From the NCBI GenBank assembly GCA_030386875.1, contig CM059580.1, positions 4,350,618-4,414,617 on the forward strand: 64,000 nucleotides of DNA, written 5' to 3'. Below the pieces are notes generated by a model. It was not told the origin of the DNA. It was given only the letters and a program-made list of their open reading frames with translations, and ran no database searches. A program made the translations under genes and the position numbers. Source of the DNA: Morinoia aosen (taxonomy: Eukaryota > Arthropoda > Malacostraca > Amphipoda > Talitridae). Numbering within the stretch: position 1 is the first letter of the stretch; the number at the start of each line of letters is the position of its first letter. This document shows positions 14,225 through 60,526 of the stretch, piece after piece.

Positions 14225-14428
14225 TTTGTAACAAAATTCCCTCCGTGTACCACCGGTGGGTCACACTGCAGTTAACATGTAACAAAATCCCCTCCGTGTA
14301 CCACCGGTGGGTCACACTGCAGTTAACATGTAACAAAATCCCTCCGTGTACCACCGGTGGGTCACACTGCAGTTAACATGTAACAAAATCCCCTCCGGGT
14401 ACCACCGGTGGGTCACACTGCAGTTAAC
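14225..14428 (-). repeat. Four units of the 51-bp CCACCGGTGG repeat, inside the 21-bp array
   Basis: Four copies of the 51-bp unit (TGTACCACCGGTGGGTCACA plus GCAGTTAACATGTAACAAAA) in reverse orientation to 16863-17955. They interrupt the 21-bp array, which resumes at about 14465. This suggests insertion of mobile-element sequence into an existing array. Confidence 0.9.
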
Positions 14429-14464
14429 AATTCCGCTCTGTTAAAGCTAATTTAATTTAACCGG

Positions 14465-16862: not shown

Positions 16863-17955
16863 CAACACTTTGACTGCACGTGACCCACCGGTGGTACACG
16901 GAGGGGATTTTGTTACATGTTAACTGCAGTGTGACCCACCGGTGGTACACGGAGGGGATTTTGTTACATGTTAACTGCAGTGTGGCCCACCGGTGGTACA
17001 CGGAGGGGATTTTGTTACATGTTAACTGCAGTGTGACCCACCGGTGGTACACGGAGGGGATTTTGTTACATGTTAACTGCAGCGTGACCCACCGGTGGTA
17101 CACGGAGGGGATTTTGGCACATGTTAACTGCAGTGTAACCCACCGGTGGTACACGGAGGGGATTTTGTTACATGTTAACTGCAGTGTGACCCACCGGTGG
17201 TACACGGAGGGGATTTTGTTACATGTTAACTGCAGTGTGACCCACCGGTGGTACACGGAGGGTATTTTGTTACATGTTAACTGCAGCGTGACCCACCGGT
17301 GGTACACGGAGGGGATTTTGTTACATGTTAACTGCAGCGTGACCCACCGGTGGTACACGGAGGGGATTTTGTTACATGTTAACTGCAGCGTGACCCACCG
17401 GTGGTACACGGAGGGGATTTTGTTACATGTTAACTGCAGTGTGACCCACCGGTGGTACACGGAGGGGATTTTGTTACATGTTACCTGCAGCGTGACCCAC
17501 CGGTGGTACACGGAGGGGATTTTGTTACATGTTAACTGCAGTGTGACCCACCGGTGGTACACGGAGGGTATTTTGTTACATGTAAACTGCAGCGTGACCC
17601 ACCGGTGGTACACGGAGGGGATTTTGTTACATGTTAACTGCAGTGTGACCCACCGGTGATACACGGAGGGGATTTTGTTACATGTTAACTGCAGCGTGAC
17701 CCACCGGTGGTACACGGAGGGGATTTTGTTACATGTTAACTGCAGTGTAACCCACCGGTGGTACACGGAGGGGATTTTCACAACGCTGCAGACCGACCAG
17801 TAGTCACAAACACAATTTCCATAAATACTTAATCAAAGCTAAATGAAGGCACGATCCAGTTCATGTTTGCTATTTTCAACATCGCGCGCTGCAGTTGACT
17901 TTGTGTTGGAGTTAAATGTTGAACTTCAGTTTAACAAATCACGGCCAAAGTTAAA
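16863..17955 (+). mobile_element. CCACCGGTGG mobile element, copy A, with about 18 internal 51-bp repeats
   Basis: The left terminus CAACACTTTGACTGC (16863-16877) is the same as the terminus of the short copy at 42926-43150. The interior (16879-17778) is a 51-bp tandem array with core GACCCACCGGTGGTACACGG and ATTTTGTTACATGTTAACTG. The right flank 17781-17931 is almost identical, in reverse orientation, to 42950-43105 (I see about one difference in 150 bp). The right terminal repeat is degraded or lost after 17931. Since 51 is 17 codons, both strands stay open through the array; I do not count these as genes. Confidence 0.85.
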
Positions 17956-23100: not shown

Positions 23101-23600
23101 NNNNNNNNNNNNNNNNNNNNNNNNNNNNNNNNNNNNNNNNNNNNNNNNNNNNNNNNNNNNNNNNNNNNNNNNNNNNNNNNNNNNNNNNNNNNNNNNNNNN
23201 NNNNNNNNNNNNNNNNNNNNNNNNNNNNNNNNNNNNNNNNNNNNNNNNNNNNNNNNNNNNNNNNNNNNNNNNNNNNNNNNNNNNNNNNNNNNNNNNNNNN
23301 NNNNNNNNNNNNNNNNNNNNNNNNNNNNNNNNNNNNNNNNNNNNNNNNNNNNNNNNNNNNNNNNNNNNNNNNNNNNNNNNNNNNNNNNNNNNNNNNNNNN
23401 NNNNNNNNNNNNNNNNNNNNNNNNNNNNNNNNNNNNNNNNNNNNNNNNNNNNNNNNNNNNNNNNNNNNNNNNNNNNNNNNNNNNNNNNNNNNNNNNNNNN
23501 NNNNNNNNNNNNNNNNNNNNNNNNNNNNNNNNNNNNNNNNNNNNNNNNNNNNNNNNNNNNNNNNNNNNNNNNNNNNNNNNNNNNNNNNNNNNNNNNNNNN
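23101..23600. other. Assembly gap, 500 N
   Basis: Exactly 500 undetermined bases, a round size usually used for gaps of unknown length. It lies about 560 bp downstream of the last visible transglutaminase exon and may hide the catalytic exons. Confidence 1.
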
Positions 23601-24145
23601 ATGCGTCAGGTATAGCAAGGTATCCGGTAATTAACGAGCAAGTATCTGGCAAGTATACGGAAATAACGGCCAAGTGTCCATCAGGTATGACCAAGTATCC
23701 GGTCAAGTCTCTGGTCATGTATCTGGTCAGGTATCCGGTCATCTATCCAATCTTGTATTGAATCAAGTATCCGGTCATGTATCAGGTCAAGCAAATGGTC
23801 AGCTATACGGTCAAGTATCCGTCATGTATCTGGTCTGGTCAGTCAAGTATCCGGTCAAGTATCCGGTGATGTATCAGGTCAATCATTCAGTCAAGTATCC
23901 GGATCAGCATCGTGTCAGGTATCCGGTCGAGTATCCAGTCAAGTACCCAGTCAAGTATCCAGTCAAGTATCTAGTCAAGTATCCAGTCAAGCATCCGGCC
24001 AAGTATCCATCCGGTCAAACATCCAGTCAAGTTTTCGGTCAAATATCCGGTCAAGTATCCGGTTGAGTATCCGGTCAAGTATCCGGTCAGGTATCCAGTC
24101 AGGTATCCGGTCAAGTATCCGGTCAGGTATCCGCCCAAGTATCCG
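23601..24145. repeat. About 12-bp minisatellite GGTCAAGTATCC
   Basis: The words GTATCCGGTCAA and variants repeat with slightly irregular spacing (12 bp with indels). It ends 15 bp from the donor site of transglutaminase exon 6. Confidence 0.93.
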
Positions 24146-24159
24146 GTGGAGCCACTCAC

Positions 24160-24312
24160 TATCCGGGAGATTGCCCGCGACACAAGGACCGGGTTTGCCC
24201 GCTCCTCAGGGGCAAGACCGGACCTCTCGAGCAGCAGGACGCAGGCGGGCAAGACAGCGTCGTCGAATTGCCCGAACACCCAATGGCGGCCGCGGTGCGC
24301 GTTGTACCAGAT
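24160..24312 (-). CDS. Transglutaminase exon 6 (start of the catalytic core)
   Basis: 51 codons, phase 0 to phase 0, residues 234-284 of the visible protein. The acceptor is a C-run followed by CAG just above 24312, and the donor is a perfect GTGAGT just below 24160. It encodes HWVFGQFDDAVLPAC, VLLLERSGLAPEERANP and VLVSRAISRI. These are the family's conserved beginning of the core domain, which normally leads into the V-N-S-x-D-D-x-G-V-L segment and then the G-Q-C-W active-site motif. Those following segments are not found in the 24 kb to the left. A 12-bp array begins 15 bp after the donor, and another array lies 13 bp before the acceptor. Confidence 0.95.
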
Positions 24313-24325
24313 CTGGGGGGGGGGG

Positions 24326-24596
24326 GAGTGCCCTTAGTGGTGCCCTTAGTGGTGCCCTTAGTGCCATTGGTGGTGCCCTTAGTGGTGCCCTTAGTGCCAT
24401 TGGTGGTGCCCTTAGTGCCATTGGTGGTGCCCTTAGTGGTGCCCTTAGTGCCATTGGTGGTGCCCTTAGTGCCATTGGTGGTGCCCTTAGTGGTGCCCTT
24501 AGTGCCATTGGTGGTGCCCTTAGTGGTGCCATTAGTTCCCTAAGTGGTGCCCTTAGTCCCCTTGGTGCCCTTAGTGGTACCCTCAGGGGTGCCACT
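24326..24596. repeat. 12-bp-based minisatellite GTGCCCTTAGTG in intron 5
   Basis: GTGCCCTTAGTG alternates with GTGCCATTGGTG, forming larger composite units. On the gene's sense strand it ends in a C-run 13 bp before the exon 6 acceptor. Confidence 0.95.
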
Positions 24597-24599
24597 AGT

Positions 24600-25003
24600 C
24601 ATGAATAAGCCTAAAATAATCGTAATATTAAAGAACCAAGAACAAGAAGTCAGAGGAGAATAAAAATAAGAATTTCACAAATATCAAGAAAAAAAAAATT
24701 TCACAGGACATTTTTTTTTAAATTCAATTTATAGAACAAAATATTATAGAGTCGTTCCATTTTTTTAGTCGAACGCCATTTGCGGGTACACGATATTTCC
24801 AATCACGGATCAGTATTTTTTTGAAGAAAAATTGAGAAAAACGAATTTTCCCAACCTCAAAATTCTAACGTTTTTTTCGAAACTAAATTTTAAATTTGCA
24901 TTTCCTTGAAGCAAATTGAATTATTTCCTGTTAAAAAATACCCTGCAATTTTAATAAAAATGATACTTTATTCCAATCGAGCCTGACACACACCACCTGG
25001 TAC
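24600..25003. other. AT-rich unique intron sequence
   Basis: Single-copy AT-rich sequence inside transglutaminase intron 5. No gene or repeat is recognised. Confidence 0.5.
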
Positions 25004-27398
25004 ACTGGTATACCAAATGCCTCATAACTAACACCAGGACGCCATGACGGTTGGTATATCAAATGCCTCATAACTAACACCAGGACGCCATGACGGTTGG
25101 TACATCAAATGCCTCATAACTAACACCAGGACGCCATGACGGTTGGTACACCAAATGCCTCATAACTAACACCAGGACGCCATGACGGTTGGTATACCAA
25201 ATGCCTCATAACTAACACCAGGACGCCATGACGGTTGGTATATCAAATGCCTCATAACTAACACCAGGACGCCATGACGGTTGGTATATCAAATGCCTCA
25301 TAACTAACACCAGGACGCCATGACGGTTGGTATATCAAATGCCTCATAACTAACACCAGGACGCCATGACGGTTGGTATACCAAATGCCTCATAACTAAC
25401 ACCAGGACGCCATGACGGTTGGTATACCAAATGCCTCATAACTAACACCAGGACGCCATGACGGTTGGTATACCAAATGCCTCATAACTAACACCAGGAC
25501 GCCATGACGGTTGGTATACCAAATGCCTCATAACTAACACCAGGACGCCATGACGGTTGGTATACCAAATGCCTCATAACTAACACCCGGACGCCATGAC
25601 GGTTGGTATATCAAATGCCTCATAACTAACACCAGGACGCCATGACGGTTGGTATATCAAATGCATCATAACTAACACCAGGACGCCATGACGGTTGGTA
25701 TACCAAATGCCTCATAACTAACACCAGGACGCCATGACGGTTGGTATATCAAATGCCTCATAACTAACACCAGGACGCCATGACGGTTGGTATACCAAAT
25801 GCCTCATAACTAACACCAGGACGCCATGACGGTTGGTATATCAAATGCCTCATAACTAACACCAGGACGCCATGACGGTTGGTATATCAAATGCCTCATA
25901 ACTAACACCAGGACGCCATGACGGTTGGTATACCAAATGCCTCATAACTAACACCAGGACGCCATGACGGTTGGTATACCAAATGCCTCATAACTAACAC
26001 CAGGACGCCATGACGGTTGGTATACCAAATGCCTCATAACTAACACCAGGACGCCATGACGGTTGGTATACCAAATGCCTCATAACTAACACCAGGACGC
26101 CATGACGGTTGGTATACCAAATGCCTCATAACTAACACCAGGACGCCATGACGGTTGGTATACCAAATGCCTCATAACTAACACCAGGACGCCATGACGG
26201 TTGGTATACCAAATGCCTCATAACTAACACCAGGACGCCATGACGGTTGGTATACCAAATGCCTCATAACTAACACCAGGACGCCATGACGGTTGGTATA
26301 CCAAATGCCTCATAACTAACACCAGGACGCCATGACGGTTGGTATACCAAATGCCTCATAACCAACACCAGGACGCCATGACGGTTGGTATATCAAATGC
26401 CTCATAACTAACACCAGGACGCCATGACGGTTGGTATACCAAATGCCTCATAACTAACACCAGGACGCCATGACGGTTGGTATACTAAATGCCTCATAAC
26501 TAACACCAGGACGCCATGACGGTTGGTATACCAAATGCCTCATAACTAACACCAGGACGCCATGACGGTTGGTATATCAAATGCCTCATAAATAACACCA
26601 GGACGCCATGACGGTTGGTATACCAAATGCCTCATAACTAACACCAGGACGCCATGACGGTTGGTATATCAAATGCTTCATAACTAACACCAGGACGCCA
26701 TGACGGTTGGTATATCAAATGCCTCATAACTAACACCAGGACGCCATGACGGTTGGTATATCAAATGCCTCATAACTAACACCAGGACGCCATGACGGTT
26801 GGTATATCAAATGCCTCATAACTAACACCAGGACGCCATGACGGTTGGTATACCAAATGCCTCATAACTAACACCAGGACGCCATGACGGTTGGTATATC
26901 AAATGCCTCATAACTAACACCAGGACGCCATGACGGTTGGTATTTCAAATGCCTCATAACTAACACCAGGACGCCATGACGGTTGGTATATCAAATGCCT
27001 CATAACTAACACCAGGACGCCATGACGGTTGGTATACCAAATGCCTCATAACTAACACCAGGACGCCATGACGGTTGGTATACCAAATGCCTCATAACTA
27101 ACACCAGGACGCCATGACGGTTGGTATATCAAATGCCTCATAACTAACACCAGGACGCCATGACGGTTGGTATACCAAATGCCTCATAACTAACACCAGG
27201 ACGCCATGACGGTTGGTATATCAAATGCCTCATAACTAACACCAGGACGCCATGACGGTTGGTATATCAAATGCCTCATAACTAACACTAGGACGCCATG
27301 ACGGTTGGTATACCAAATGCCTCATAACTAACACCAGGACGCCATGACGGTTGGTATACCAAATGCCTCATAACTAACACCAGGACGCCATGACGGTT
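25004..27398. repeat. 46-bp satellite-like array, about 52 highly uniform copies
   Basis: The unit contains CCTCATAACTAACACCAGGA and CGCCATGACGGTTGGTATA. Copies are nearly identical. The main variable site is TATACCAAA versus TATATCAAA, with rare single-base differences. It lies in transglutaminase intron 5, is the longest uniform array in the window, and has no spacers. Confidence 0.98.
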
Positions 27399-27424
27399 AC
27401 CCCCGGTCAAGCCGGTACCCATTT

Positions 27425-28010
27425 CCGACACCTGGGTAGAGTGGGGAATTGTGGCTGAGTTCTCCCTTTTCCCAACGGGGAGAACACCTGGGTAGAGTGG
27501 GCAATTGTGGCTGAGTTCTCCCTTTTCCCAACGGGGAGAACACCTGGGTAGAGTGGGAAATTGTGGCTGAGTTCTCACTTTTCCCAACGGGGAGAACACC
27601 TGAAAAGAGTGGGGAATTGTGGCTGAGTTCTCCCTTTTCCCACCGGGGAGAACACCTGGGTAGAGTGGGGAATTGTGGCTGAGTTCTCCCTTTTCCCAAC
27701 GGGGAGAACACCTGGGTAGAGTGGGGAATTGTGGCTGAGTTCTCCCTTTTCCCAACGGGGAGAACACCTGGGTAGAGTGGGGAATTGTGGCTGAGTTCTC
27801 CCTTTTCCCAACGGGGAGAACACCTGGGTAGAGTGGGGAATTGTGGCTGAGTTCTCCCTTTTCCCAACGGGGAGAACACCTGGGTAGAGTGGGGAATTGT
27901 GGCTGAGTTCTCCCTTTTCCCAACGGGGAGAACACCTGGGTAGAGTGGGGAATTGTGGCTGAGTTCTCCCTTTTCCCAACGGGGAGAACAACTGGGTAGA
28001 ACCAAAAATT
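27425..28010 (-). repeat. 56-bp minisatellite derived from a SINE body, about 10 copies
   Basis: The unit is CACCTGGGTAGAGTGGGGAA plus GCTGAGTTCTCCCTTTTCCC and AACGGGGAGAA. Each unit can form a stem between GTTCTCCC and GGGAGAAC. The sequence immediately to the right (28011-28053) is a diverged single unit attached to the tRNA-like head at 28061-28127. The array therefore looks like an amplified piece of that SINE. Confidence 0.93.
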
Positions 28011-28018
28011 GTAGCCGA

Positions 28019-28053
28019 GTTCTACCTTATTCCAACGGGGAATAAGGTAGAAC
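28019..28053. other. Perfect 15-bp hairpin
   Basis: The arm GTTCTACCTTATTCC (28019-28033) and its exact reverse complement (28039-28053) are separated by a 5-base loop AACGG. It sits between the tRNA-like head and the 56-bp array. Confidence 0.9.
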
Positions 28054-28127
28054 TAAATAAGGTTCCGGGATTCGAACCGCCGACACCCTATGAAGGGCGC
28101 GCTCGCGACCACTCGGCCAGGGTGACC
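28019..28127 (-). mobile_element. tRNA-headed SINE (promoter head and start of body)
   Basis: On the minus strand the head carries a perfect A box TGGCCGAGTGG (28109-28119) and B box GGTTCGAATCC (28068-28078), the internal RNA polymerase III promoter of tRNA genes. From A box to acceptor-like end it is only about 66 nt, and the anticodon arm does not form a proper 5-bp stem with a 7-base loop. I therefore read it as a SINE head and not a working tRNA. The body continues to the left into the hairpin and the 56-bp repeats. It lies in transglutaminase intron 5, in the sense orientation. Confidence 0.75.
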
Positions 28128-28197
28128 CCACAGGGAAAATCAAATTGCAAGCACAATAAAGAAGAGCACCTCCCCAGTAGCTGGGGCATCCTCTCAC

Positions 28198-28262
28198 CTT
28201 CCCCACGTCGTTGAGGACGTACTCCTGACGGTGGCTGTCGTCAGCCATGTACACCTGGTCCT
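28198..28262 (-). CDS. Transglutaminase exon 5
   Basis: 65 nt: two bases complete codon 212 (G from exon 4 plus AG gives Glu) and 21 codons follow, ending in phase 0. The acceptor is a long C-run plus CAG above 28262 and the donor is AAG|GTGAGA below 28198. It encodes DQVYMADDSHRQEYVLNDVGK. This is the segment of the family that follows F-N-P-W and carries the strongly conserved R-Q-E-Y-V-L motif linking the beta-sandwich to the core. The exon is small but unmistakable, and its phases fit both neighbours exactly. Confidence 0.95.
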
Positions 28263-28645
28263 CTGGGGGGGGGGAGGGGGGAGGGAAGGAGAGGGGGGCA
28301 CGGGAAGATAGGGAAGAAGGGGAAAGGGGCAAGGAAAGAAGCGGTAAGGAGGAAGGGGGGTCAGGAAAGTAGGGGTAAGAGGGAAAAAGGGAACAAGAAG
28401 AAAAAAGTTTGTTAGAAGATCCAAACTAGGATAAAAAAGGTACAAACAGTTTTGAGGTTGGCTAGTAATTTGAAAAATTTGCTTCACGCCTTTCAGATGC
28501 ATTAAATTTTTGTCCACATCAAATTTGGGCTTCATTTATACCAAACTTATTTTCGACTCTAATATTTAAATTCTTAAATAATGATATATTACATATAATT
28601 ACGTAAAAATTAATTAAAATTCCCACTTATTCCTAATGCATCCTG
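28263..28645. other. Intron 4 non-array part, including a long polypyrimidine tract
   Basis: Bases 28263-28400 are purine-rich on the plus strand, i.e. a polypyrimidine tract on the sense strand ending at the exon 5 acceptor. The rest is unique AT-rich sequence. Confidence 0.7.
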
Positions 28646-30833
28646 TTTATCATCAAGAGGTGGCCCCATCAAGAAGTGGCCCCATCAAGAAGTGGCCCCA
28701 TCAAGAAGTGGCCCCATCAAGAGGTGGCCCCAACAAGAGGTGGCCCCAACAAGAGGTGGCCCCATCAAGAAGTGGCCCAATCAAGAAGTGGCCCCATCAA
28801 GAAGTGGCCCCATCAAGAAGTGGCCCCATCAAGAGGTGGCCCCATCAAGAGGTGGCCCCATCAAGAAGTGGCCCCATCAAGAAGTGGCCCCATCAAGAAG
28901 TGGCCCCATCAAAAAGTGGCCCCATCAAGAAGTGGCCCCATCAAGAAGTGGCCCCATCAAGAAGTGGCCCCATCAAGAAGTGGCCCCATCAAGAAGTGGC
29001 CCCATCAAGAAGTGGCCCCATCAAGAGGTGGCCCCATCAAGAGGTGGCCCCATCAAGAAGTGGCCCCATCAAGAAGTGGCCCCATCAAGAAGTGGCCCCA
29101 TCAAGAAGTGGCCCCATCAAGAAGTGGCCCCATCAAGAAGTGGCCCCATCAAGAGGTGGCCCCATCAAGAAGTGGCCCCATCAAGAAGTGGCCCCATCAA
29201 GAAGTGGCCCCATCAAGAAGTGGCCCCATCAAGAAGTGGCCCCATCAAGAAGTGGCCCCATCAAGAAGTGGCCCCATCAAGAAGTGGCCCCATCAAGAAG
29301 TGGCCCCATCAAGAAGTGGCCCCATCAAGAGGTGGCCCCATCAAGAGGTGGCCCCATCAAGAAGTGGCCCCATCAAGAAGTGGCCCCATCAAAAAGTGGC
29401 CCCATCAAGAAGTGGCCCCATCAAGAAGTGGCCCCATCAAGAAGTGGCCCCATCAAGAGGTGGCCCCATCAAGAGGTGGCCCCAACAAGAGGTGGCCCCA
29501 ACAAGAGGTGGCCCCAACAAGAGGTGGCCCCAACAAGAGGTGGCCCCAACAAGAGGTGGCCCCATCAAGAGGTGGCCCCATCAAGAAGTGGCCCCATCAA
29601 GAAGTGGCCCCATCAAGAAGTGGCCCCAACAAGAGGTGGCCCCAACAAGAGGTGGCCCCAACAAGAGGTGGCCCCATCAAGAGGTGGCCCCATCAAGAAG
29701 TGGCCCCATCAAGAAGTGGCCCCATCAAGAAGTGGCCCCAACAAGAGGTGGCCCCAACAAGAGGTGGCCCCATCAAGAGGTGGCCCCATCAAGAAGTGGC
29801 CCCATCAAGAAGTGGCCCCATCAAGAAGTGGCCCCAACAAGAGGTGGCCCCAACAAGAGGTGGCCCCAACAAGAGGTGGCCCCAACAAGAGGTGGCCCCA
29901 TCAAGAGGTGGCCCCAACAAGAGGTGGCCCCAACAAGAGGTGGCCCCAACAAGAGGTGGCCCCAACAAGAGGTGGCCCCAACAAGAGGTGGCCCCATCAA
30001 GAGGTGGCCCCAACAAGAGGTGGCCCCAACAAGAGGTGGCCCCAACAAGAGGTGGCCCCAACAAGAGGTGGCCCCATCAAGAGGTGGCCCCAACAAGAGG
30101 TGGCCCCAACAAGAGGTGGCCCCAACAAGAGGTGGCCCCAACAAGAGGTGGCCCCAACAAGAGGTGGCCCCAACAAGAGGTGGCCCCAACAAGAGGTGGC
30201 CCCAACAAGAGGTGGCCCCAACAAAAGGTGGCCCCAACAAGAGGTGGCCCCAACAAGAGGTGGCCCCATCAAGAGGTGGCCCCAACAAGAGGTGGCCCCA
30301 ACAAGAGGTGGCCCCAACAAGAGGTGGCCCCAACAAGAGGTGGCCCCAACAAGAGGTGGCCCCAACAAGAGGTGGCCCCAACAAGAGGTGGCCCCAACAA
30401 GAGGTGGCCCCAACAAGAGGTGGCCCCAACAAAAGGTGGCCCCAACAAGAGGTGGCCCCAACAAGAGGTGGCCCCATCAAGAGGTGGCCCCAACAAGAGG
30501 TGGCCCCAACAAGAGGTGGCCCCAACAAGAGGTGGCCCCAACAAGAGGTGGCCCCAACAAGAGGTGGCCCTAACAAGAGGTGGCCCCAACAAGAGGTGGC
30601 CCCATCAAGAGGTGGCCCCATCAAGAGGTGGCCCCAACAAGAGGTGGCCCCAACAAGAGGTGGCCCCAACAAGAGGTGGCCCCAACAAGAGGTGGCCCCA
30701 ACAAGAGGTGGCCCCATCAAGAGGTGGCCCCAACAAGAGGTGGCCCCAACAAGAGGTGGCCCCAACAAGAGGTGGCCCCAACAAGAGGTGGCCCCAACAA
30801 AAGGTGGCCCCATCAAGAGGCCCCATCAAGAGG
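28646..30833. repeat. 16-bp minisatellite GTGGCCCCATCAAGAG, about 137 copies
   Basis: The 16-bp unit occurs as variants CCATCAAGAA, CCATCAAGAG and CCAACAAGAG. The first dominates the left, the last the right. The array fills about 85% of transglutaminase intron 4, and its last, modified unit contains the donor site of exon 4. All forward frames are free of stops, giving spurious frames of up to 807 codons. Confidence 0.98.
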
Positions 30834-30837
30834 TTAC

Positions 30838-31006
30838 CTTTGCTCCAGGGGTTGAAGAGGATGTAGATGGAGAGGTTCTCGAGGTTGGGGGAGTGGGTGG
30901 GGGGTTTTGGGTCGGTGGGGGAGGGGGGAGCGTAGGTGGGGGGGCGGGGGGACACCTCAGCACTCACCCGCCACAGCCCCACGGGGGCGTTGGCCTCCAC
31001 TTGTAT
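30838..31006 (-). CDS. Transglutaminase exon 4
   Basis: 169 nt: 56 codons (residues 156-211) and one base of codon 212. The acceptor is CTCCTCCCCAG above 31006 and the donor is AAAG|GTAACC below 30838. It encodes IQVEANAPVGLWRVSAEV, then a Pro/Thr-rich stretch of about 25 residues, then LSIYILFNPWSK. The first and last parts are the conserved N-P-A-x-x-x-V-G-x-W and F-N-P-W segments of the N-terminal domain. The Pro-rich stretch replaces a loop of variable length in the family. No AG acceptor is available to make it an intron, so I read it as coding. The donor sequence lies within the first unit of the 16-bp array. Confidence 0.94.
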
Positions 31007-31009
31007 CTG

Positions 31010-31960
31010 GGGAGGAGATTTGGGGAAGGAATATTGAGGCATTTTTGTTTCAGTTGGAGAATTTTTACTCTGAATTGTTTTTATTTTGGGGAAATTTGAG
31101 TTTCGCTTTGAATTATTCTGTTTTGGGGGATTATTTTTGCCTTATTTTCTTTTTTTATTTGGGGGAAATTTTAAATTCGCCATGAATCGGTCTTTGCCTT
31201 TTGGGGAAGGCTCGATATTTACCCCATATTTTTAGTTTATTTTGGGGACATTTGAGTTGTGCTTTGAATAATTCATTGATTTGGGGGGTTTATTTTTACC
31301 CTAAATTGTCTGGTGTTTTAGAAAAAAACTTGGATTTTACCCCGAAATATCCTTCGCTTTCGAGAGGAAAATTGTTTCTTTATTTTGGAATCAATCCAGT
31401 GGGTCCATAGGGAAAGGAATTTATCCCTGAAATTCCCGATTGGGGAATTCCGGGAGTAAAGAATGAAAGACAGAAAAAACGTTTATTTCCAAGTTGCCAC
31501 ATGAGATAGATGCCAACATATTGGCTTTTAAAAGTTTCTTAATATAGGACGTCCTAAAACAAAAAGTTCCATACGAGGAGTACTAATTGACAAACCATCC
31601 GAGGTGTGCAAGTAAATAAGCCATACGAGGCATAATAATAGACAAACTATCAGAGGTGTACAAGTAGATAGACCATACGAGGCATATTAATAGACAAAAT
31701 ATACGAGGCGTACTAGTAGACAGTAGAGATTCTCCGCAGAAATTTCCCGATTGCCGAAAAGCAAACCGTCCTCTTTCAACTTCTTTTTTCTTTTTTTGTG
31801 AAATAGAAACAGGATTTTTAAATCAATCCAAATAAAACAAAACCTGGCGTCAAAAGCTACTTTTATACTCAAAATATACAAATTATTGCCATCGATATAA
31901 AATATCATCTTTGTAAGTGACGTAACGATGGTGAAAGAATCATTTCATGATAAATCTTTG
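31010..31960. other. Intron 3 unique sequence with short repeats
   Basis: T/G-rich sequence with repeated TTTTGGGGAAATTT words (31060-31440). Then about five loose 28-bp repeats with ACCATACGAGGCATA (31560-31730), then AT-rich sequence. No exon is recognised. Confidence 0.55.
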
Positions 31961-31964
31961 ATGA

Positions 31965-32990
31965 TTTAGAACGGAATATGTAGAATTATTTTTGATTTGT
32001 AATGAAATATGTAGAATTATTTTTGATTTGTAATGAAATATGTAGAATTATTTTTGATTTGTAATGAAATATGTAGAATTATTTTCGATATGTAATGAAA
32101 TATGTAGAATTATTTTCGATTTGTAATGAAATATGTAGAATTATTTTTGATTTGTAATGAAATATGTAGAATTATTTTTGATTTGTAATGAAATATGTAG
32201 AATTATTTTTGATTTGTAATGAAATATGTAGAATTATTTTTGATTTGTAATGAAATATGTAGAATTATTTTTGATTTGTAATGAAATATGTAGAATTATT
32301 TTTGATTTGTAATGAAATATGTAGAATTATTTTCGATTTGTAATGAAATATGTAGAATTATTTTCGATTTGTAATGAAATATGTAGAATTATATTTGATT
32401 TGTAATGAAATATGTAGAATTATTTTTGATTTGTAATGAAATATGTAGAATTATTTTTGATTTGTAATGAAATATGTAGAATTATTTTTGATTTGTAATG
32501 AAATATGTAGAATTATTTTTGATTTGTAATGAAATATGTGGAATTATTTTTGATTTGTAATGAAATATGTAGAATTATTTTCGATTTGTAATGAAATATG
32601 TAGAATTAATTTTGATTTGTAATGAAATATGTAGAATTAATTTTGATTTGTAATGAAATATGTAGAATTAATTTTGATTTGTAATGAAATATGTTGAATT
32701 ATTTTTGATTTGTAGTGAAATATGTAGAATTAATTTTGATTTGTAATGAAATATGTAGAATTAATTTTGATTTGTAATGAAATATGAAGAATTAATTTTG
32801 ATTTGTAATGAAATATGTAGAAATTATTTTGATTTGTAATGAAATATGTAGAATTAATTTTGATTTGTAATGAAATATGTAGAATTAATTTTGATTTGTA
32901 ATGAAATATGTAGAATTAATTTTGATTTGTAATGAAATATGTAGAATTAATTTTGATTTGTAATGAAATATGTAGAATTAATTTTGAACA
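31965..32990. repeat. 31-bp AT-rich minisatellite, about 33 copies
   Basis: The unit is GAAATATGTAGAATTATTTT plus TGATTTGTAAT. Units to the right of about 32605 carry TTAATTTTG where the left ones have TTATTTTTG, a clear domain switch. Confidence 0.97.
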
Positions 32991-33239
32991 GAGCAGGGAA
33001 ATATTTTAAAATCTATTCCATTGGAATAAAATATTCAGGGTAATTTTTGCATTACACAGAAAAATAATTTGAGAAATAATACCACAGTAAAAATGGTTAG
33101 GGTAACTTTTTTCTTTTACCGGCGAATATTATAGAAAATTTTGGGGGTAGGGATAAAGCTTTCAAGGCAATAGTTGTGAAAACAAAAAATATTCCGATCT
33201 TTTAAATCGCGAATTAAAAAAATTAACTGAGAATTGGGT

Positions 33240-33560
33240 TAAGAAACCGAAAAGAAAGTTACCCCAACATGAATAGGGTGCAAAAACTGGCGAGGAAGTT
33301 ACCCCAAGAAGTAATTAGTCCCAAAAACCTACAAGAAAATTACCCTAATAGAAATTGGTCGCCTAATCTTACAATTAAATTACCCTAGGAAGAAATTGGA
33401 TGTAACAACTGACCAGAAAGTTACCCCAAGAAAAAATTGGGCACTAAAACTTGCAAGAAAGTTACCCCGAAAGAAGTTACCCCAACAGAAATTGGCCACA
33501 AAAACCGACAAAAAATTTACCCCTACAGGAATTAGGGGCAAAAACCAGAGGGAAAGTTAC
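33240..33560 (-). repeat. Repeats of a splice-donor-like motif next to exon 3
   Basis: On the sense (minus) strand six to seven irregular units of about 33-50 bp contain GGGTAACTTTC or close variants, each followed by a T-rich stretch and CCAATTTC. The true donor of exon 3, GGG|GTAACTTTCC, is the right-most member. The repeats therefore duplicate the donor region into the intron. A further related copy is at about 36913-36935. Confidence 0.75.
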
Positions 33561-33694
33561 CCCAACAGTGACGGAGTTGCCCTGGATTTCGGTGACTCGT
33601 GAGTCCCACTCGTCCTTGGAGGGTCGGTCGAAATCTTTCTTCCCCGACACCGGCAGCACCACACGCGTCCCGTGCAGGGGGTTGGGGCGCGGGC
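33561..33694 (-). CDS. Transglutaminase exon 3
   Basis: 134 nt: two bases complete codon 111 (Gly) and 44 codons follow (112-155), ending in phase 0. The acceptor is CTCCCCCAG above 33694 and the donor is GGG|GTAACT below 33561. It encodes PRPNPLHGTRVVLPVSGKK, a D/E-W-D stretch (KDEWDSRV) and EIQGNSVTVG. These match the family's G-T-x-V-x-x-P-V strand, the W-x-A/S-R strand and the following L-T-V strand of the N-terminal beta-sandwich. The mobile-element repeat at 33706 starts about 11 bp upstream of the acceptor. Confidence 0.95.
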
Positions 33695-33705
33695 CTGGGG
33701 GAGTT

Positions 33706-35270
33706 TTTACTGCAGTGTGACCCACCGGTGGGACACGGTGGAAATTTTGTAGATACTTTGAGTGTGTGACCCACCAGTGGGACACGGACGCAATTTGGCT
33801 ACTGGGAGTGGGGAATTTTGTTATGTTTACTGCAGTGTGACCCACCGGTGGGACACGGACGGAATTAGGCTGCTGTTAGGGCGTGGAATGTTGTTACATG
33901 TTAACTGCAGTGTGACCCACCGGTGGGACACGGACGGAATTTGGCTACAGAGAGTGGGGAATTTTGTTATACGTTTACTGCAGTGTGACCCACCGGTGGG
34001 ACACGGACGGAATTTGGCTACAGAGAGTGGGGAATTTTGTTATACGCTTACTGCAGTGTGACCCACCGGTGGGACACGGACGGAATTTGGCTACAGAAAG
34101 TGGGGAATTTTGTTATACGTTTACTGCAGTGTGACCCACCGGTGGGACACGGACGGAATTTGGCTACTGGGAGGGGGGAATTTTGTTATATGTTTACTGC
34201 AGTGTGACCCACCGGTGGGACACGGACATAATTTGGCTACTGGGAGGGGGGAATTTTGTTATATGTTTACTGCAGTGTGATCCACCGGTGGGACACGGAC
34301 GCAATTTGGCTACTGGGAGGGGGGAATTTTGTTATATGTTTACTGCAGTGTGACCCACCGGTGGGACACGGACGGAATTTGGCTACTGGGAGGGGGGAAT
34401 TTTGTTATACGTTTACTGCAGTGTGACCCACCGGTGGGACACGGACGGAATTTGGCTACTGGGAGGGGGGAATTTTGTTATATGTTTACTGCAGTGTGAC
34501 CCACCGGTGGGACACGGACGGAATTTGGCTACTGGGAGGGGGGAATTTTGTTATATGTTTACTGCAGTGTGACCCACCGGTGGGACACGGACGGAATTTG
34601 GCTACTGGGAGGGGGGAATTTTGTTATATGTTTACTGCAGTGTGACCCACCGGTGGGACACGGACGGAATTTGGCTACTGGGAGGGGGGAATTTTGTTAT
34701 ATGTTTACTGCAGTGTGACCCACCGGTGGGACACGGACATAATTTGGCCACTGGGAGGGGGGAATTTTGTTATATGTTTACTGCAGTGTGACCCACCGGT
34801 GGGACACGGACGGAATTTGGCTACTGGGAGGGGGGAATTTTGTTATATGTTTACTGCAGTGTGACCCACCGGTGGGACACGGACGGAATTTGGCTACTGG
34901 GAGGGGGGAATTTTGTTATATGTTTACTGCAGTGTGACCCACCGGTGGGACACGGACGGAATTTGGCTACTGGGAGGGGGGAATTTTGTTATATGTTTAC
35001 TGCAGTGTGACCCACCGGTGGGACACGGACGCAATTTGGCTACAGAGAGTGGGGAATTTTGTTATACGTTTACTGCAGTGTGACCCACCGGTGGGACACG
35101 GAGGAAATTTCACCGCTCACTGACCAGTAGTCACAAACTCAATTTTCATAAACACACTTAATCATAACCAAATGTTTGCGATTTTTGTCAAAATGGCTTG
35201 CTACAATAAACTTTTAATTAGAGTTAAATTTTGAACTCCAGTTTAAAAATATGCGGTAAATGCAGTAAAG
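33706..35270 (+). mobile_element. CCACCGGTGG mobile element, copy B, with about 19 internal 73-bp repeats
   Basis: The interior (33711-35105) repeats GACCCACCGGTGGGACACGG then GAATTTGGCTACTGGGAGG and ATTTTGTTATATGTTTACTG with a 73-bp period. That is the 51-bp unit of copy A plus about 22 bp. The right flank (ACCAGTAGTCACAAACTCAA, CATAAACACACTTAATCA, GAGTTAAATTTTGAACTCCA) matches the right flank of copy A at lower identity. It lies in transglutaminase intron 2, antisense to the gene. Confidence 0.85.
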
Positions 35271-36204
35271 ATTATGAAGATATCCGTAATGGAAGAGTTA
35301 TTTGATGTTAATGTAATGGGGAGTACTTTAGGGTATTTATTTTTTCATTTCAGAGTTTTAGGGAAATTAAAGAGGGATGTTTTCATATACTGGAGAATTT
35401 GCTGGGGATTAAAAAGGGACGTTTTTATTCGCCGGGGAAGTTTTTTAGGGAAGTTTTTTGGGGAAGTTTTAGGAGATTTCTAAAGAGACATTTTCATGCA
35501 TAGAAGAATTGATTGGGTCATGGTAGGTATGATTTTATTCCTTAGAGAATTTAAAAGGAATATTTTTATTCATAGCAGAATTTGAAGGGGACTTTAATTT
35601 AATTTAATTGAAAGGGAATTTAATTGTAAACGGATTCATTAAGAAATAGAAGAGAGATATAACTACTCTCCAATTCATCAAGCTATTACTGAAGTGATCG
35701 AAAAAAAAAACTATTTAAAAAATATTTTCCCATAATTGAAAGTTTATCGATTTTAATAATCATCAAAAATGAATAACTATCAAAGAATTTGATTAATTAA
35801 ACTTAATTTTCTGTTTTTGACATAATGGTTGATGATGATAGATAATTACAGATATTTATACAAAGTAATGCACAATTACAAATTACAATAAATGAAAGTG
35901 GATAATGATAGTTCATTATAATTAATCTATACTATAATTAATCTATAATTAATCTATACTATAATAAGAGCCGCGTCCGTCTGTCCGAAGCCAGCCTGCA
36001 GTGTGTGATGAGCTTCATGTGATTTGTCCAACATTAACATACATTTTTCATGGGCCATGTTCACTTCGTTCTTAATTCAAATGATTTTAATAATAATTAA
36101 TAACACAATAAAATAAACGGTTTTTGTGTGAGTACAGTTGAGTTAACCTTATATGTGGTCTGATGTCGATATTTGTAATTTTATAGACAAACTTTATGTA
36201 AAAT
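35271..36204. other. Intron 2 AT-rich sequence
   Basis: Unique AT-rich sequence. GAAGTTTTAGGG-like words repeat near 35380-35480. At 35920-36010 an AT-rich run leads into AGAGCCGCGTCCGTCTGTCC and GTGTGTGATGAGC. The latter 13-mer also occurs at 62184, so a dispersed-element fragment is possible. Confidence 0.5.
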
Positions 36205-36760
36205 TTTTTACTTCTCTATGAATTTTATAAAAATTTATAAATAACGTATAAATTTTATAAAAACTTATAATTAACGTGTAGATTTTATAAAAATTTATAA
36301 TTAACGCGTAAATTTTATAAAAATTTATAATTAACGTGTAAATTTTATAAAAATTTATAATTAACGTGTAAATTTTATAAAAATTTATAATTAACGTGTA
36401 AATTTTATAAAAATTTATAATTAACGCGTAAATTTTATAAAAATTTATAATTAACGTGTAAATTTTATAAAAATTTATAATGAACGTGTAAATTTTATAA
36501 AAATTTATAATTAACGCGTAAATTTTATAAAAATTTATAATTAACGTGTAAATTTTATAAAAATTTATTATTAACGTGTAAATTTTATAAAAATTTATAT
36601 TGAACGTGTAAATTTTATAAAAATTTATATATAATTAACGCGTAAATTTTATATAAATTTATAATTAACGTGTAAATTTTATAAAAATTTATAATTAACG
36701 TGTAAATTTTATAAAAATTTATAATTAACGTAAATTTTATAAAAATTTATAATGAACACA
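36205..36760. repeat. 30-bp AT-rich minisatellite, about 18 copies
   Basis: The unit is AACGTGTAAATTTTATAAAA plus ATTTATAATT. The palindromic TAAATTTTATAAAAATTTA part can fold. GTGTAAA and GCGTAAA variants alternate. Confidence 0.95.
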
Positions 36761-37009
36761 AAATTTAATGAAAAAAATATTTTTTATAAAATTGCTAGAA
36801 CACAATGTGTTGAGCCAACACTTGAACTCACAAAACCAATTATCTATCACAAATTACTATAGATCATCCCATAACTTATAGCATGAACTTAGAGAATTGG
36901 ATTAAACAAACAAGAAAGTTACCCCAGCAGGAATTTGGGCCCAATAACTGGCGAGAAAGTTGTCTTAAAATAATTTATTTCAATTTGTCATAAAATAGTG
37001 TGAAAACTG

Positions 37010-37310
37010 AAAAATTTAAATATTCGAAAATTTTCATATCATTCGTCACAAAATTTGTCAGAAAAATTTTTCATAAAAATTTTCAATAAAAATTTGTCAG
37101 AAAAATTTGTCAGAAAAATCTTTCATAAAAATTTTCAATAAAAATTTGTCAGAAAAATTTGTCAGAAAAATTGGTCATAAAAATTTTCAATACAAATTTG
37201 TCAAAAATAGTACGGATATTAAAAAGTTAAAATATTACAAATGTCAGAATTTCATAATTTAACTTGTCATAAAATTTATCACAAAAATTTATCATAAAAT
37301 TTTTTAAGTT
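37010..37310. repeat. Irregular AT-rich repeats AATTTGTCAGAAAA
   Basis: AAATTTGTCAGAAAAATTTGT and CATAAAAATTTTCAATA recur several times with irregular spacing. Confidence 0.75.
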
Positions 37311-37319
37311 CAATGTCAT

Positions 37320-37729
37320 GAAAATAAGAAAAGAAAATAGAAAAAAACACAGAAAAAAATACAAAAAACACTGCAGTGTTATCTAAAAAAAGAACCGCGA
37401 ATATCCCGCCAAGTGTCCCGCGAAAAGCCGCTATATTCGCTATCTAGCGGGTTTCCCCCCAAACAAAGGAAGCCTCGGTGAGATAGCGGGCAAAATGGAA
37501 CGGATGTTGGCAACACTCGCTCATTGATAACTTGTGAAAAATACAACAAGAGTTTGCGAACACCTGTACTATTTTTTTTTTAATTTAATAAGAAGCGATA
37601 TCTCAGGAAAAGATTTATATATATGCTCTTTTCAAAGCTTGTTAATTCATTGAAAGGAAAATATGTGTCTGAACTTTATAGTTGGCTGAAAATATTTTTT
37701 GTTTAAGAATATCAGCGTAATATTAATAA
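37320..37729. other. Intron 2 unique sequence with CGCTATCTAGCGGG palindrome
   Basis: Single-copy sequence. Around 37436-37453 GCTATATTCGCTATCTAGCGGG contains the inverted pair CGCTA/TAGCG. No exon is recognised. Confidence 0.4.
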
Positions 37730-38172
37730 GCAACACACAACAACACAAGACAACACAACACACACCACACACTCTGCAACACAAGACAACACACACAACA
37801 CACAACACACAACACACAACAACACACTCTGCAACACAACACAACACACAACACAACACAAAACACACAACAACACAACACACAACACACAACAACACAA
37901 CACAGCACAACACACAACACAACACAACACAACACACAACACAAAACACACAACACACAACAACACAACACACAACACAACACACAGCACACAACACAAC
38001 ACACAACACAACACAAAACACACAACACAACACACAACACAACACAACACACAACACAACACACAACACAACACACAACACACAACACACAACACAACAC
38101 AAAACACACAACACACAACAACACAACACACAGCACACAACACAACACACACAACACACAACAACACAACAC
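37730..38172. repeat. (ACAACAC)n low-complexity array at the exon 2 donor
   Basis: Mixed AACAC, ACAAC and ACACAC words with no fixed period. On the sense strand it is GTGTTGTGTG-rich, and it begins directly at the donor GTGTGT of exon 2. Its cysteine/valine frames are not genes. Confidence 0.93.
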
Positions 38173-38174
38173 AC

Positions 38175-38375
38175 CTGTATCAAAAGTGAGCACCAGCCGC
38201 TGCCTCCGCTTGAGGTCGACCTCCTGGTTGAGTGTGAGCTTGAGGTTGAACGCAACCCCCCTGCGCACCACCAGGGTGTTGGTGGTGCGCTCCACCAGCA
38301 CGTACTTGTGCGTGTGGTGCGGTGGTGCGTTCTGTTTCGCCTGCAGCTCCAGCTTCTCGATGCGGGGGTTGTCGT
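38175..38375 (-). CDS. Transglutaminase exon 2
   Basis: 201 nt: two bases complete codon 44 (G + AC gives Asp), then 66 codons (45-110) and one base of codon 111. The acceptor is TGCACCCCAG above 38375 and the donor is ACAG|GTGTGT below 38175. It encodes IEKLELQAKQNAPPHHTHKY, VLVER, TLVVRRGVAFNLKLTLN and RLVLTFDT. This is the family's first beta-sandwich block: the pattern N-x-x-x-H-H-T-x-x-Y, the L-V-V-R-R-G motif, and a strand ending in F-x-F/T. It is the strongest single piece of evidence for the N-terminal domain. Confidence 0.96.
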
Positions 38376-38398
38376 CTGGGGTGCAGCGTGCGTATGTA

Positions 38399-38760
38399 TA
38401 CCATTTGTACCATTTATACCATTGTGCCATTTATACCATTTACACCATTTTACCATTTATACCATTTTGCCATTTATACCATTTATACCTTCTATAACAT
38501 TTATACCATTAATACCATTTATACAATTATGCCATTGTGCCATTTATACCATTTATAACAAACATACCATTTATTCCATTTGTGCCATTTATACCATGTA
38601 TGCCATGTATGTCATTTATACCCTGTACACCGGTATACCATTTATACCATTTACACCATTTACACCATTTACACTAAATATGCCATTTATACCAAACAAT
38701 CCATTCATACCACTTATGCCATGATGTGCCATGTATACCGAACTTATATACCATTTATGC
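38399..38760. repeat. ATACCATTT-type minisatellite at the exon 2 acceptor
   Basis: 9-10-bp words (ATACCATTT, TGCCATTT, CACCATTT) repeat for 360 bp, starting 24 bp upstream of the exon 2 acceptor on the sense strand. Confidence 0.92.
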
Positions 38761-38929
38761 CATGTATTCCATGCTATATATGCACATCATATATAAAATA
38801 TACACCATATATATACCGCTTGTGTCATTTATGCCATTTATACCATGTGTGCCATACAATACAATGTACAATATGTCATATTGTACGCCACCTCCACCAT
38901 TTATATGTGTGCTATATGTATTCCATATA

Positions 38930-39160
38930 TAGCATATATTGCTATATATGCAATATGTGTGCTATATTGCATGGGTTACATACTATATATATATATACAT
39001 ATATATATAACATACCATGTATGCCATGGGTTACATACTATATATATATGTATGTATATACCACGCCATGTATGCCATAGGTTACATACTATATATATAT
39101 ATACCATACCATGTATGCAATGGGTTACATACTAACATACTATACATATATATATACTAC
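38930..39160. repeat. About 55-60-bp repeat with GGGTTACATACTATATATAT
   Basis: Four copies of ATGGGTTACATACTATATA followed by variable (TA)n and ACCATGTATGC. Confidence 0.85.
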
Positions 39161-39475
39161 AGTCATAGCTCACCTCACGAGACCCAACTTACGAATGATC
39201 CAAGTTTGGATACATGAAATTTTTGTCAAAATAAATAAAAATAAAATATTCGTTTATCATAAAATTTTCGTCTCTGGATACGAAAGAAAATTCAAGTTAC
39301 AAAACACCAAATCTCAAAATTCGAATAATGCGGGCTCGGCTCCGCAGCCGCCAGAATGCCCGGGACGAAAATCCATTTTACATGTATTTTATTTAAATAT
39401 GTTTGTGTTGGATTTGGAGCTATAGAAGTGCTCTTGACTCCCAACGTTGAGTTCCAGCCATCACAATAATTTTAT
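39161..39475. other. Intron 1 unique sequence
   Basis: Single-copy sequence. A plus-strand frame crosses it but has no recognisable product. No exon is seen. Confidence 0.4.
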
Positions 39476-39479
39476 CATT

Positions 39480-39800
39480 GATGGAATATAAATAAAATTA
39501 TATTAATGAGAATTGCACCAAGATTATAGACCATAAATAAAATTATATTAGTGATAATTGCATCAAGATAAGTTATTGTGATTATAGAAAATAAATAAAA
39601 TTATATCATTGATAATTGCATCAAGATGAGTTATTGTGATTATAGAAAATAAATAAAATTATATCATTGATAATTGCATCAAGATGAGTTATTGTGATTA
39701 TAGAACATAAATAAAATTATATCATTGATAATTGCATCAAGATAAGTTATTGTGATTATAGACCATAAATAAAATTACATTAGTGATAATTGCATCTACG
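39480..39800. repeat. 58-bp AT-rich minisatellite, about 5 copies
   Basis: The unit contains ATAAATAAAATTATATCATT and GATAATTGCATCAAGATGAG. Confidence 0.93.
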
Positions 39801-40089
39801 TACTTCATGAATCTACTACGCTGGTCTACTCATCTACTCACTAAAGAACTACTCAAATACAAGCGTTTTCCATACAAATCTACTCGGCTACCTCACATGT
39901 CTACCAATTTAATAGTAGATTTGTTAATGGTAGATTTAATTTAATCTACAATACAGATCTACCATTATGCCTGAAAAGTTCACTTCGCATGTCTACTCAT
40001 CTACCTGGTGAATTTTCAACACTAATCTACCAATCTACTTAGTACATTCATTTCTTAGGTATATTTATTCATCGGAAATTTTTAATACC

Positions 40090-40540
40090 CAAGTCTACCC
40101 GTCTACTCTACCACACATATACCCAAGTCTACCTGTCTACTCTACCACACAAATACCCAAGTCTACCCGTCTACTCTACCACACAAATACCCAAGTCTAC
40201 CCGTCTACTCTACCACACAAATACCCAAGTCTACCCGTCTACTGTACCACACAAATACACAAGTCTACCCGTCTACTATACCACACAAATACCAAAGTCT
40301 ACCTGTCTACTATACCACACAAATACCAAAGTCTACCCGTCTACTCTACCACACAAATACACTAATCTACCCGTCTACTCTACCACACATATACCCAAGT
40401 CTACCTGTCTACTCTACTACAGAAACACCCAAGTCTACCTGTCTACTCTACCACACAAATACCCAAGTCTACCTGTCTACTCTACCACACAAATACCCAA
40501 GTCTACCTGTCTACTCTACCACAGAAGCACCCAAGTCTAC
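40090..40540. repeat. 34-bp minisatellite with CTACCCGTCTACTCTACC, about 13 copies
   Basis: The unit is ACACAAATACCCAAGTCTAC plus CCGTCTACTCTACC. Related single words (CTACTCATCTAC) run upstream from about 39800. Confidence 0.95.
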
Positions 40541-40664
40541 CTAAATTCTACAAAATTCCCCTGATTTCAAAAAGAAACCACTGCCTCAGGAAACCACAGC
40601 CTGGTTTCAAAACGAAACCACTGCCTGGCTTAAAAAGAAAGGGGAGAGAGAGGAATATCCTCAC

Positions 40665-40794
40665 CGGTTTCGGGAGCGGTTTCCTCGAGCAGCTCGACCT
40701 CGGTATCGGTTTCTGCCCCCCGTATCGCCTCGTTCTCTCCCCTCACGCGATCCCACAGGCGGTCGAACCAACCGTCCAGCCTGGCGAACGTCAT
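40665..40794 (-). CDS. Transglutaminase exon 1 (first visible coding exon)
   Basis: 130 nt: 43 codons from ATG and one base of codon 44. CCCCCAG lies immediately before the ATG on the sense strand, so this exon is spliced to an upstream 5'UTR exon or to further coding sequence that I cannot see. I take the ATG as the start because no other in-frame Met follows. The peptide MTFARLDGWFDRLWDRVRGE is followed by an acidic stretch (ETDTEVELLEETAPET). This kind of variable, partly acidic N-terminal extension precedes the beta-sandwich in arthropod transglutaminases. The donor GTGAGG below 40665 has phase 1, matching exon 2. An array starts within about 4 bp of the acceptor. Confidence 0.85.
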
Positions 40795-40796
40795 CT

Positions 40797-41040
40797 GGGG
40801 GTGATGGGGTGAGGGGGTGAGGGGGGTGTGGGGGTGAGGGGTGAGGGGTGAGGGGTGAGGGTTGAGGGTTGAGGGGTGAGGGGGTTGCGGGGGTGAGGGT
40901 AGATGGGTGAGGGTAGATGGGTGAGGGGGGTGAGGGGGTGAGGGGGTTGCGGGGGTGAGGTGTGAGGGTTGAGGGGGTGAGGGGCGAGGGGGTGAGGAAT
41001 GAGGGGATGAGGGGTGAGGGGGTGAGGAGGTGAGGGGGTA
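40797..41040. repeat. G/T-rich repeat GGGGTGAGGG abutting exon 1 acceptor
   Basis: Irregular 7-10-bp words GGGGTGAGGG, GGTTGAGGG and GGGTAGATGG. On the sense strand it is CCCTCACCCC, a 240-base pyrimidine-rich tract ending at the acceptor CAG. Confidence 0.9.
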
Positions 41041-59793: not shown

Positions 59794-59831
59794 CTGCAAC
59801 GAACATTTCCGTTAATTAACGGCATATAACG

Positions 59832-60525: not shown

Positions 60526-60526
60526 A

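Follow-up and report, generated by a model that had tools for sequence, protein, structure and literature searches.

Minisatellite arrays at the exon edges of a transglutaminase gene of the amphipod Morinoia aosen, and candidate junction-copying arrays in other genes

The window, by which we mean the whole stretch of 64,000 nucleotides analysed (Morinoia aosen, contig CM059580.1, positions 4350618-4414617), holds six minus-strand exons of a transglutaminase gene, E1 to E6, which give one open frame once joined. It also holds a large coding exon of another gene and a gap in the assembly.

40665..40794, minus strand: exon E1, the first coding exon seen, ATG directly 3' of the acceptor; from splice signals, phase and the second gene copy
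38175..38375, minus strand: exon E2; from the gene model, PDB match and second gene copy
33561..33694, minus strand: exon E3; from the gene model and PDB match, with Pfam Transglut_N below cut-off
30838..31006, minus strand: exon E4; from the gene model and PDB match
28198..28262, minus strand: exon E5; from the gene model and PDB match
24160..24312, minus strand: exon E6; from the gene model, PDB match and second gene copy
53868..59793, minus strand: large coding exon of another gene, a natural control with in-frame arrays
23101..23600, no strand: 500-N gap, with a collinear second copy of window positions 23733-64000 on its far side

The joined product resembles factor XIIIA and other transglutaminases in the PDB (phmmer, best 3.4e-24, residues 59-281), and by phmmer the N-terminal part of TGM/FXIIIA is present in order across several exons. 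E1 lies outside the PDB match. Pfam Transglut_N on E3 alone scores 6.9e-4, under the family cut-off, and the E3 donor has a possible alternative position 6 nt earlier. Where is the exon with the catalytic cysteine? A motif search found no GQCW in the window or in 40 kb on one side, and for Transglut_core none of the 13 matches listed was on contig CM059580.1; since the 500-N gap follows E6, the missing GQCW exon does not show a loss. ARAGORN and Rfam (gathering threshold) found nothing in the window, and Pfam gave no family above cut-off for ten long frames outside the transglutaminase gene. A Galaxin match in a 2673-aa frame was rejected as low complexity; it sits inside a 14-bp array.

Tandem Repeats Finder (TRF) reports 133 rows in the window, which merge into 77 arrays covering 53% of the sequence. 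Those nearest the transglutaminase exons, as TRF places them, are as follows.

40797..41039, minus strand: C-rich array, 7-8 bp unit, stopping 2 bp before E1
40590..40640, minus strand: 24-bp unit x2.2, 24 bp from the E1 donor
38397..38772, minus strand: 9-bp (27-bp) array, 21 bp before the E2 acceptor
37731..38174, minus strand: GT-rich array, beginning at the first intron base after E2
33764..35110, minus strand: 73-bp array upstream of E3, a degenerate copy extending to ~33706
33252..33568, minus strand: degenerate 40-41-bp array at the E3 donor
28651..30834, minus strand: 16-bp array x137, beginning 3 bp after the E4 donor
24327..24593, minus strand: 54-bp (21/33) array, 14 bp before the E6 acceptor
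23692..24147, minus strand: 12-bp array, 12 bp after the E6 donor

The distances from acceptor and donor to the nearest array are 2 and 24 bp for E1, 21 and 0 for E2, 69 and 0 for E3, 562 and 3 for E4, 47 and 156 for E5, and 14 and 12 for E6. When the exact E3 end is used and TRF is applied to the gene strand, those of E3 become 69 and 14 bp and those of E5 22 and 156 bp. An array thus lies within 25 bp of 8 of the 12 exon edges, or of 9 on the gene strand, which bears out the observation, made earlier from the sequence alone, of arrays within about 25 bp at eight of twelve edges. That sequence-only reading also held the arrays to be unrelated to one another, and the units are indeed unrelated between exons, measuring ~7-8, 9, 12, 12, 16, 24, 41, 54 and 73 bp at the near edges. 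Its list needs two amendments: the 24-bp array near the E1 donor had been omitted, and the array placed at the E3 acceptor is there, but TRF starts it at 33764, the stretch from ~33706 being a degenerate first copy. The C-rich array before E1 is itself the source of the E1 acceptor's pyrimidine tract.

Aligned with the window, the second copy beyond the gap falls into blocks that are 76-98.6% identical, separated by stretches that do not align; it represents the alternative haplotype or else a tandem duplication of large size. Since the same 40 kb recurs across the 500-N join, haplotypes were probably left uncollapsed in the assembly. The splice sites of the gene are kept in the second copy, and many arrays differ. 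A 34-mer has 13.5 copies in one and 41.5 in the other, a 46-mer 52 and 85; by TRF a 30-mer x18 occurs in one copy only and a 15-mer x100 in the other only. In introns E1-E2 and E2-E3 the arrays differ in unit, copy number and presence: where the 73-bp array stands upstream of E3 the second copy has a 52-bp unit x2.7, and TRF finds no 24-bp array there at the E1 donor. In intron E3-E4 the two copies agree in length and share a 31-mer array. One might suspect that arrays ending at junctions are a product of assembly, given the join, the repeated 40 kb and one extra base in exon 4 of copy B; arrays abut the same junctions in both copies flanking the gap, however, and we give an assembly artefact almost no credence.

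Do 8 of 12 edges exceed chance? The answer depends on the null chosen. Arrays make up 70% of this gene's introns, so that 74% of random intron points have an array within 25 bp, and such random points in the gene's own introns predict 8.9 of 12 edges where 9 are observed (8.9 against 8 in the second gene copy). This coverage null, which we judge too generous to chance, would require that arrays be trimmed at exon borders after growth, whereas birth models let arrays grow from a seed. At the other extreme, throwing exon-length pieces into array-free sequence, a null we judge too permissive, gives 1.0 of 12. Uniform birth of arrays, treated analytically, predicts 2.0 edges for this gene and 1.8 for the second copy. 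Simulated with deletion and decay, it places 0.01-0.35 of edges within 25 bp over all settings, at most 4.2 of 12, and the five settings with realistic abutment between arrays (0.11-0.28) give 0.09-0.31, or 1.1-3.7 of 12. The gaps between observed arrays are short in 4 of 76 cases for merged arrays, and in 14 of 84 if abutting arrays are counted. We consider simulated uniform birth the fairer null, though the simulation is crude, and no setting reproduced 70% coverage and the observed abutment at once. The gene's own P values are inflated, since it was picked for showing the pattern. The earlier assertion, that arrays placed at random would seldom end at exon borders, fails against coverage (8.9 edges expected); over uniform birth (1.1-4.2) an excess is left.

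A sample independent of this gene was drawn from myosin-head, G-alpha and kinase exons of the assembly (1.99 Gb, 29 contigs). Its 75 loci gave 144 splice edges as predicted with a consensus matrix; one edge was dropped, leaving 143. The kinase exons are 20 of 135 matches, hand-picked in list order from frames under ~200 aa with both domain edges internal, one being kept of each near-identical pair. Left out were L043 (a single exon), L047, L050, L060 and L063 (near-identical duplicates), six domain-end edges, and L001-L008. The L030 donor was also left out, as it offers no acceptable GT; an array stands at distance 0 from it, and its inclusion would turn the count of near edges given below into 11/144. 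Array coverage of the flanks is 6.8%, well under that of the window. One muscle-myosin exon has as its nearest PDB sequences five from fly, water bug and tarantula (134-136 bits, against 108 for the next), in keeping with an arthropod genome.

In this sample an array lies within 25 bp of 10 of the 143 edges. Coverage predicts 12.5, random re-placement of the arrays 4.9 (P 0.005) and uniform birth 3.7-4.2 (P 0.005-0.011), so that for edges other than those of the transglutaminase gene the border claim retains a weak excess over the latter two nulls (10 against 3.7-4.9, P ~0.005-0.03). Within 10 bp the count is 7 (11.5 by coverage, 2.7 by re-placement), within 50 bp it is 13 (13.9 and 7.8), and within 100 bp it is 22 (16.6, P 0.028, and 12.2, P 1.1e-4); re-placement is exceeded at every threshold, the coverage null only at 100 bp. 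Five arrays run into the exon, where coverage predicts 10.8 and re-placement, which forbids straddling, 1.2 (P 1.2e-5); uniform birth with straddling allowed predicts 2.0-2.6 (P 0.05-0.12). These counts bear on the proposal that minisatellites are born preferentially at splice junctions, or in intron DNA close to exons, owing for instance to co-transcriptional structures, pausing or repair. Such a preference would accord with the excess in the gene and in the sample over simulated or uniform birth, and with the overlaps (5 against 1.2-2.6). Against it, the 10 near edges are not above the 12.5 of the coverage null, and the first 25 bp next to the exon have 0.67 of the array coverage of the rest (CI 0.25-1.22). 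A seed in the R-loops at the 5' ends of introns, as had been suggested, should favour donors; arrays lie within 25 bp of 5 of 70 donors and 5 of 73 acceptors, no difference, which is evidence against R-loops at intron starts, and a sense-strand excess of G is clear at only 2 of 5 donor-side stretches. Preferred birth seems to us unlikely on balance. The broader suggestion that splice sites seed arrays finds an excess over uniform-birth nulls at 25 bp and none over coverage there, and is no more than a possibility. Simple sequence in the splice signals was rejected as a general seed, most of the sampled edge arrays having non-simple units of 20-161 bp.

Further out, array coverage at 25-200 bp from exons is 2.19 times that at 300-580 bp (CI 1.51-3.87; the bins were chosen after the profile had been seen). 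With the counts, this profile indicates that splice sites do not clearly attract arrays and that exon neighbourhoods may. A 2-3-fold excess of arrays at splice edges is possible, not proven. One route to such a profile is survivorship, in which transposons and deletions overwrite intron interiors and spare exon flanks, so that flank arrays last longer. The higher coverage at 25-200 bp would suit it, but simulated deletions that stop at exons, taken alone, fell short of the observed exon-edge figure, and we regard survivorship as possible and somewhat doubtful.

Do the arrays merely reach the junction, or do they copy it? For the 22 edges that have an array no more than 35 bp away, we compared the 30-nt junction with its own flank and with the flanks of all the other near-array edges. 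The own flank was best at 8 of the 22, where about 1 is expected by rank: the E3 donor of the transglutaminase gene, L033, L069 (whose gene model is weak), the donor and the acceptor of L071, L072, L078 and L085. Among far edges, each set against ~40 random flanks, 7 of 134 have a junction copy, with about 3 expected. At the E3 donor 14 nt of the junction (8 exonic, 6 intronic) recur unchanged in the flank, with the GT of this copy at +80, a match better than all 21 mismatched pairings. No junction copy was found at the E1 donor and acceptor, the E2, E5 and E6 acceptors, the E4 donor, or the neighbouring gene's acceptor, for which the test used an edge displaced by 4 bp. The E2 donor (rank 3) and the E6 donor (rank 4 of 21) were not significant, although the 12-bp unit at the latter has CCGGATA in common with the exon end; the E3 acceptor, E4 acceptor and E5 donor were assessed solely within the pooled far group. 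The other transglutaminase arrays tested, then, abut the junction without copying it.

The five arrays that run into the exon are found at both boundary types, at the donors of L071 and L085 and the acceptors of L071, L072 and L078. In L071, a G-alpha exon, the 161-bp acceptor unit holds 41 bp of exon, and the 24-bp unit at the donor recurs in copies that retain an equal donor score. Its near-identical copy L094 has 1 extra acceptor copy against 4 in L071, and 2.5 copies of the donor 24-mer against 3.5; a 74-mer has 2.6 copies in L078 and 3.3 in L095, the latter read on a cut-off stretch. The members of these two pairs, like copies A and B of the transglutaminase gene, are alleles or recent duplicates. 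The arrays at the E3 donor and in several other genes appear to fit the mirage minisatellites of amphioxus. An excess of junction copies at near edges, 8 of 22 against 7 of 134, is what preferred birth would give as well, but the junction is also copied, with no preference needed, whenever a tandem duplication straddles it.

Might such arrays act in splicing, as enhancers, silencers or a store of alternative splice sites? Decoy sites score at least as high as the functional site at the E3, L071 and L085 donors and the L072 acceptor, but decoys that strong are absent at the E2, E4 and E6 donors and at L033, units at different exons are unrelated, and the two genome copies disagree in copy number. 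Moreover, all 14 array-borne GT or AG sites tested at six junctions, the +80 site of E3 included, would if used cause a frameshift or bring in a stop. We think a role in splicing very improbable; judging from the protein, the exon-proximal site would be the one used in RNA.

That arrays expand everywhere and that selection on exons merely sets their limit was the first explanation offered for the pattern, and it gains direct support from the large coding exon at 53868-59793, whose 5' end is set from the AG at 59795-59794 (59797 was used in the array and indel analysis). There, array periods are divisible by 3 in 10 of 10 non-redundant arrays, against 28 of 75 in the rest of the window (Fisher P 1.5e-4), and the five indels between genome copies, of 3, 30, 24, 45 and 3 bp, are all multiples of 3, against 1 of 14 copy-to-copy indels in one noncoding control. 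Arrays do, therefore, arise inside exons, where they are filtered by frame. The frame shifts and stops that use of the 14 array-borne splice sites would bring argue for the same explanation.

What process accounts for these arrays? We favour, with a probability of about 0.62, widely arising minisatellites that are limited by selection on exons, together with silent duplications that straddle junctions. The region would be saturated with fast-changing minisatellites, born by local tandem duplication at near-uniform rates along the introns, with copy number then rising or falling. Coding sequence and splice signals would set the limit because selection removes arrays that break the frame of an exon. 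A duplication straddling a junction would stay silent provided that splicing uses the splice-site copy nearest the exon; arrays could then extend to the edge of the exon and include the splice site in their units, as in a mirage. We counted for this account that 70% intron coverage alone predicts 8.9 of 12 edges near an array. Counted against it were the 8-9 near edges, which exceed every uniform-birth setting, the excess over re-placement in the sample, and the excess of coverage at 25-200 bp. A bolder proposal, which we offer tentatively and hold to be rather unlikely, is that in this arthropod junctions and the adjacent intron DNA are preferred minisatellite birthplaces, donors and acceptors alike, that mirages occur at a few per cent of splice sites genome-wide, and that splicing routinely picks the exon-proximal site among identical tandem copies.

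Mirage minisatellites have been described in a handful of amphioxus genes, among them Adh3, the globins BflGb6 and BflGb9, troponin C and PGBD5 (PMC3087553, PMC3902484). In those accounts they are tandem repeats across exon-intron boundaries, at donors and acceptors, with units of 10-160 bp; many units hold AG or GT signals, two haplotypes carry 6 and 3 units, and RT-PCR suggests normal splicing (PMC3087553, PMC3902484). The present arrays are like them, as there described, in spanning boundaries at both edge types, in the splice signals within units and in variable copy number, and unlike them in their arthropod host, in that most transglutaminase arrays only abut the junction, and in being known from DNA where the amphioxus accounts draw on RT-PCR. 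Human segmental duplications also contain minisatellites with units of ~30 bp, some at exon-intron boundaries and variable between paralogs; half of the human internal tandem repeats fall within coding exons, and those at boundaries can give rise to new introns (PMC2812944). The likeness lies in the boundary minisatellites, while half-coding placement and the formation of new introns are features of the human repeats as that source describes them. In the Rogers model, and for novel introns in Drosophila, introns are gained by tandem duplication of AG|GT proto-splice sites (PMC2891723). There too a local duplication copies splice signals, but exonic sequence is duplicated and one copy becomes the intron, whereas here existing junctions are multiplied inside introns.

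Among the literature matches listed, none describes a mirage in an arthropod; new here would be mirages in several arthropod genes, with copy number differing between genome copies. At some junctions the decoys are as strong as the real site, which offers material on how the spliceosome chooses among tandem copies, and the mirage loci are natural material for asking where minisatellites are born. In the same window, the frame-keeping arrays of the coding exon show selection acting on the same process.

The sequence around CCACCGGTGG forms the unit of three separate arrays, with units of 51, 51 and 73 bp, and it occurs once more as a single copy:

14227-14429, array, 51-bp unit
16873-17778, array, 51-bp unit
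33764-35110, array, 73-bp unit
about 43110, single occurrence

This sequence is a dispersed element that becomes arrays. Beside the 143 predicted splice edges sampled from myosin-head, G-alpha and kinase exons, array coverage of the flanks at 25-300 bp from the exon edge is about twice that beyond 300 bp.

The transglutaminase intron between exons 5 and 6 holds a stretch (about 28060-28125, minus strand) that by eye is tRNA-like, with A-box-like and B-box-like sequences; neither ARAGORN nor Rfam gave a call on it. It lies close to the exon 5 donor, its start is present both in the window's copy of the region and in the second copy, and it is possibly a tRNA-derived SINE. That second copy (C25:4302800-4347146) is collinear and lies across a 500-N join at 23101-23600. 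Because of this arrangement, and because several of the other exon matches in the genome are paired, with the same score and on one contig per pair, the haplotypes of the assembly may be uncollapsed.

Elsewhere in the assembly, at C27 59.9-71 Mb and at loci L001, L004, L005 and L008, TgpA_N, DUF2126 and Bact_transglu_N domains are encoded in long open frames that each consist of a single exon; these frames are either bacterial sequence put into a chromosome-scale contig or transferred genes. On contig C1 (35644596-35648320), a single exon of the myosin head, corresponding to roughly positions 376-452 of the model, is found in six tandem versions, presumably mutually exclusive exons, as in arthropod muscle myosin.

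Within the window, the open frame of 2673 aa at 53868-61889, minus strand, is a large coding exon of a neighbouring gene, and its protein, judged by eye, likely has a single membrane segment. The acceptor AG is probably at 59795-59794. Upstream of the exon the frame crosses an 11-bp and a 14-bp array stop-free, and some 37 bp separate the predicted acceptor from the former.
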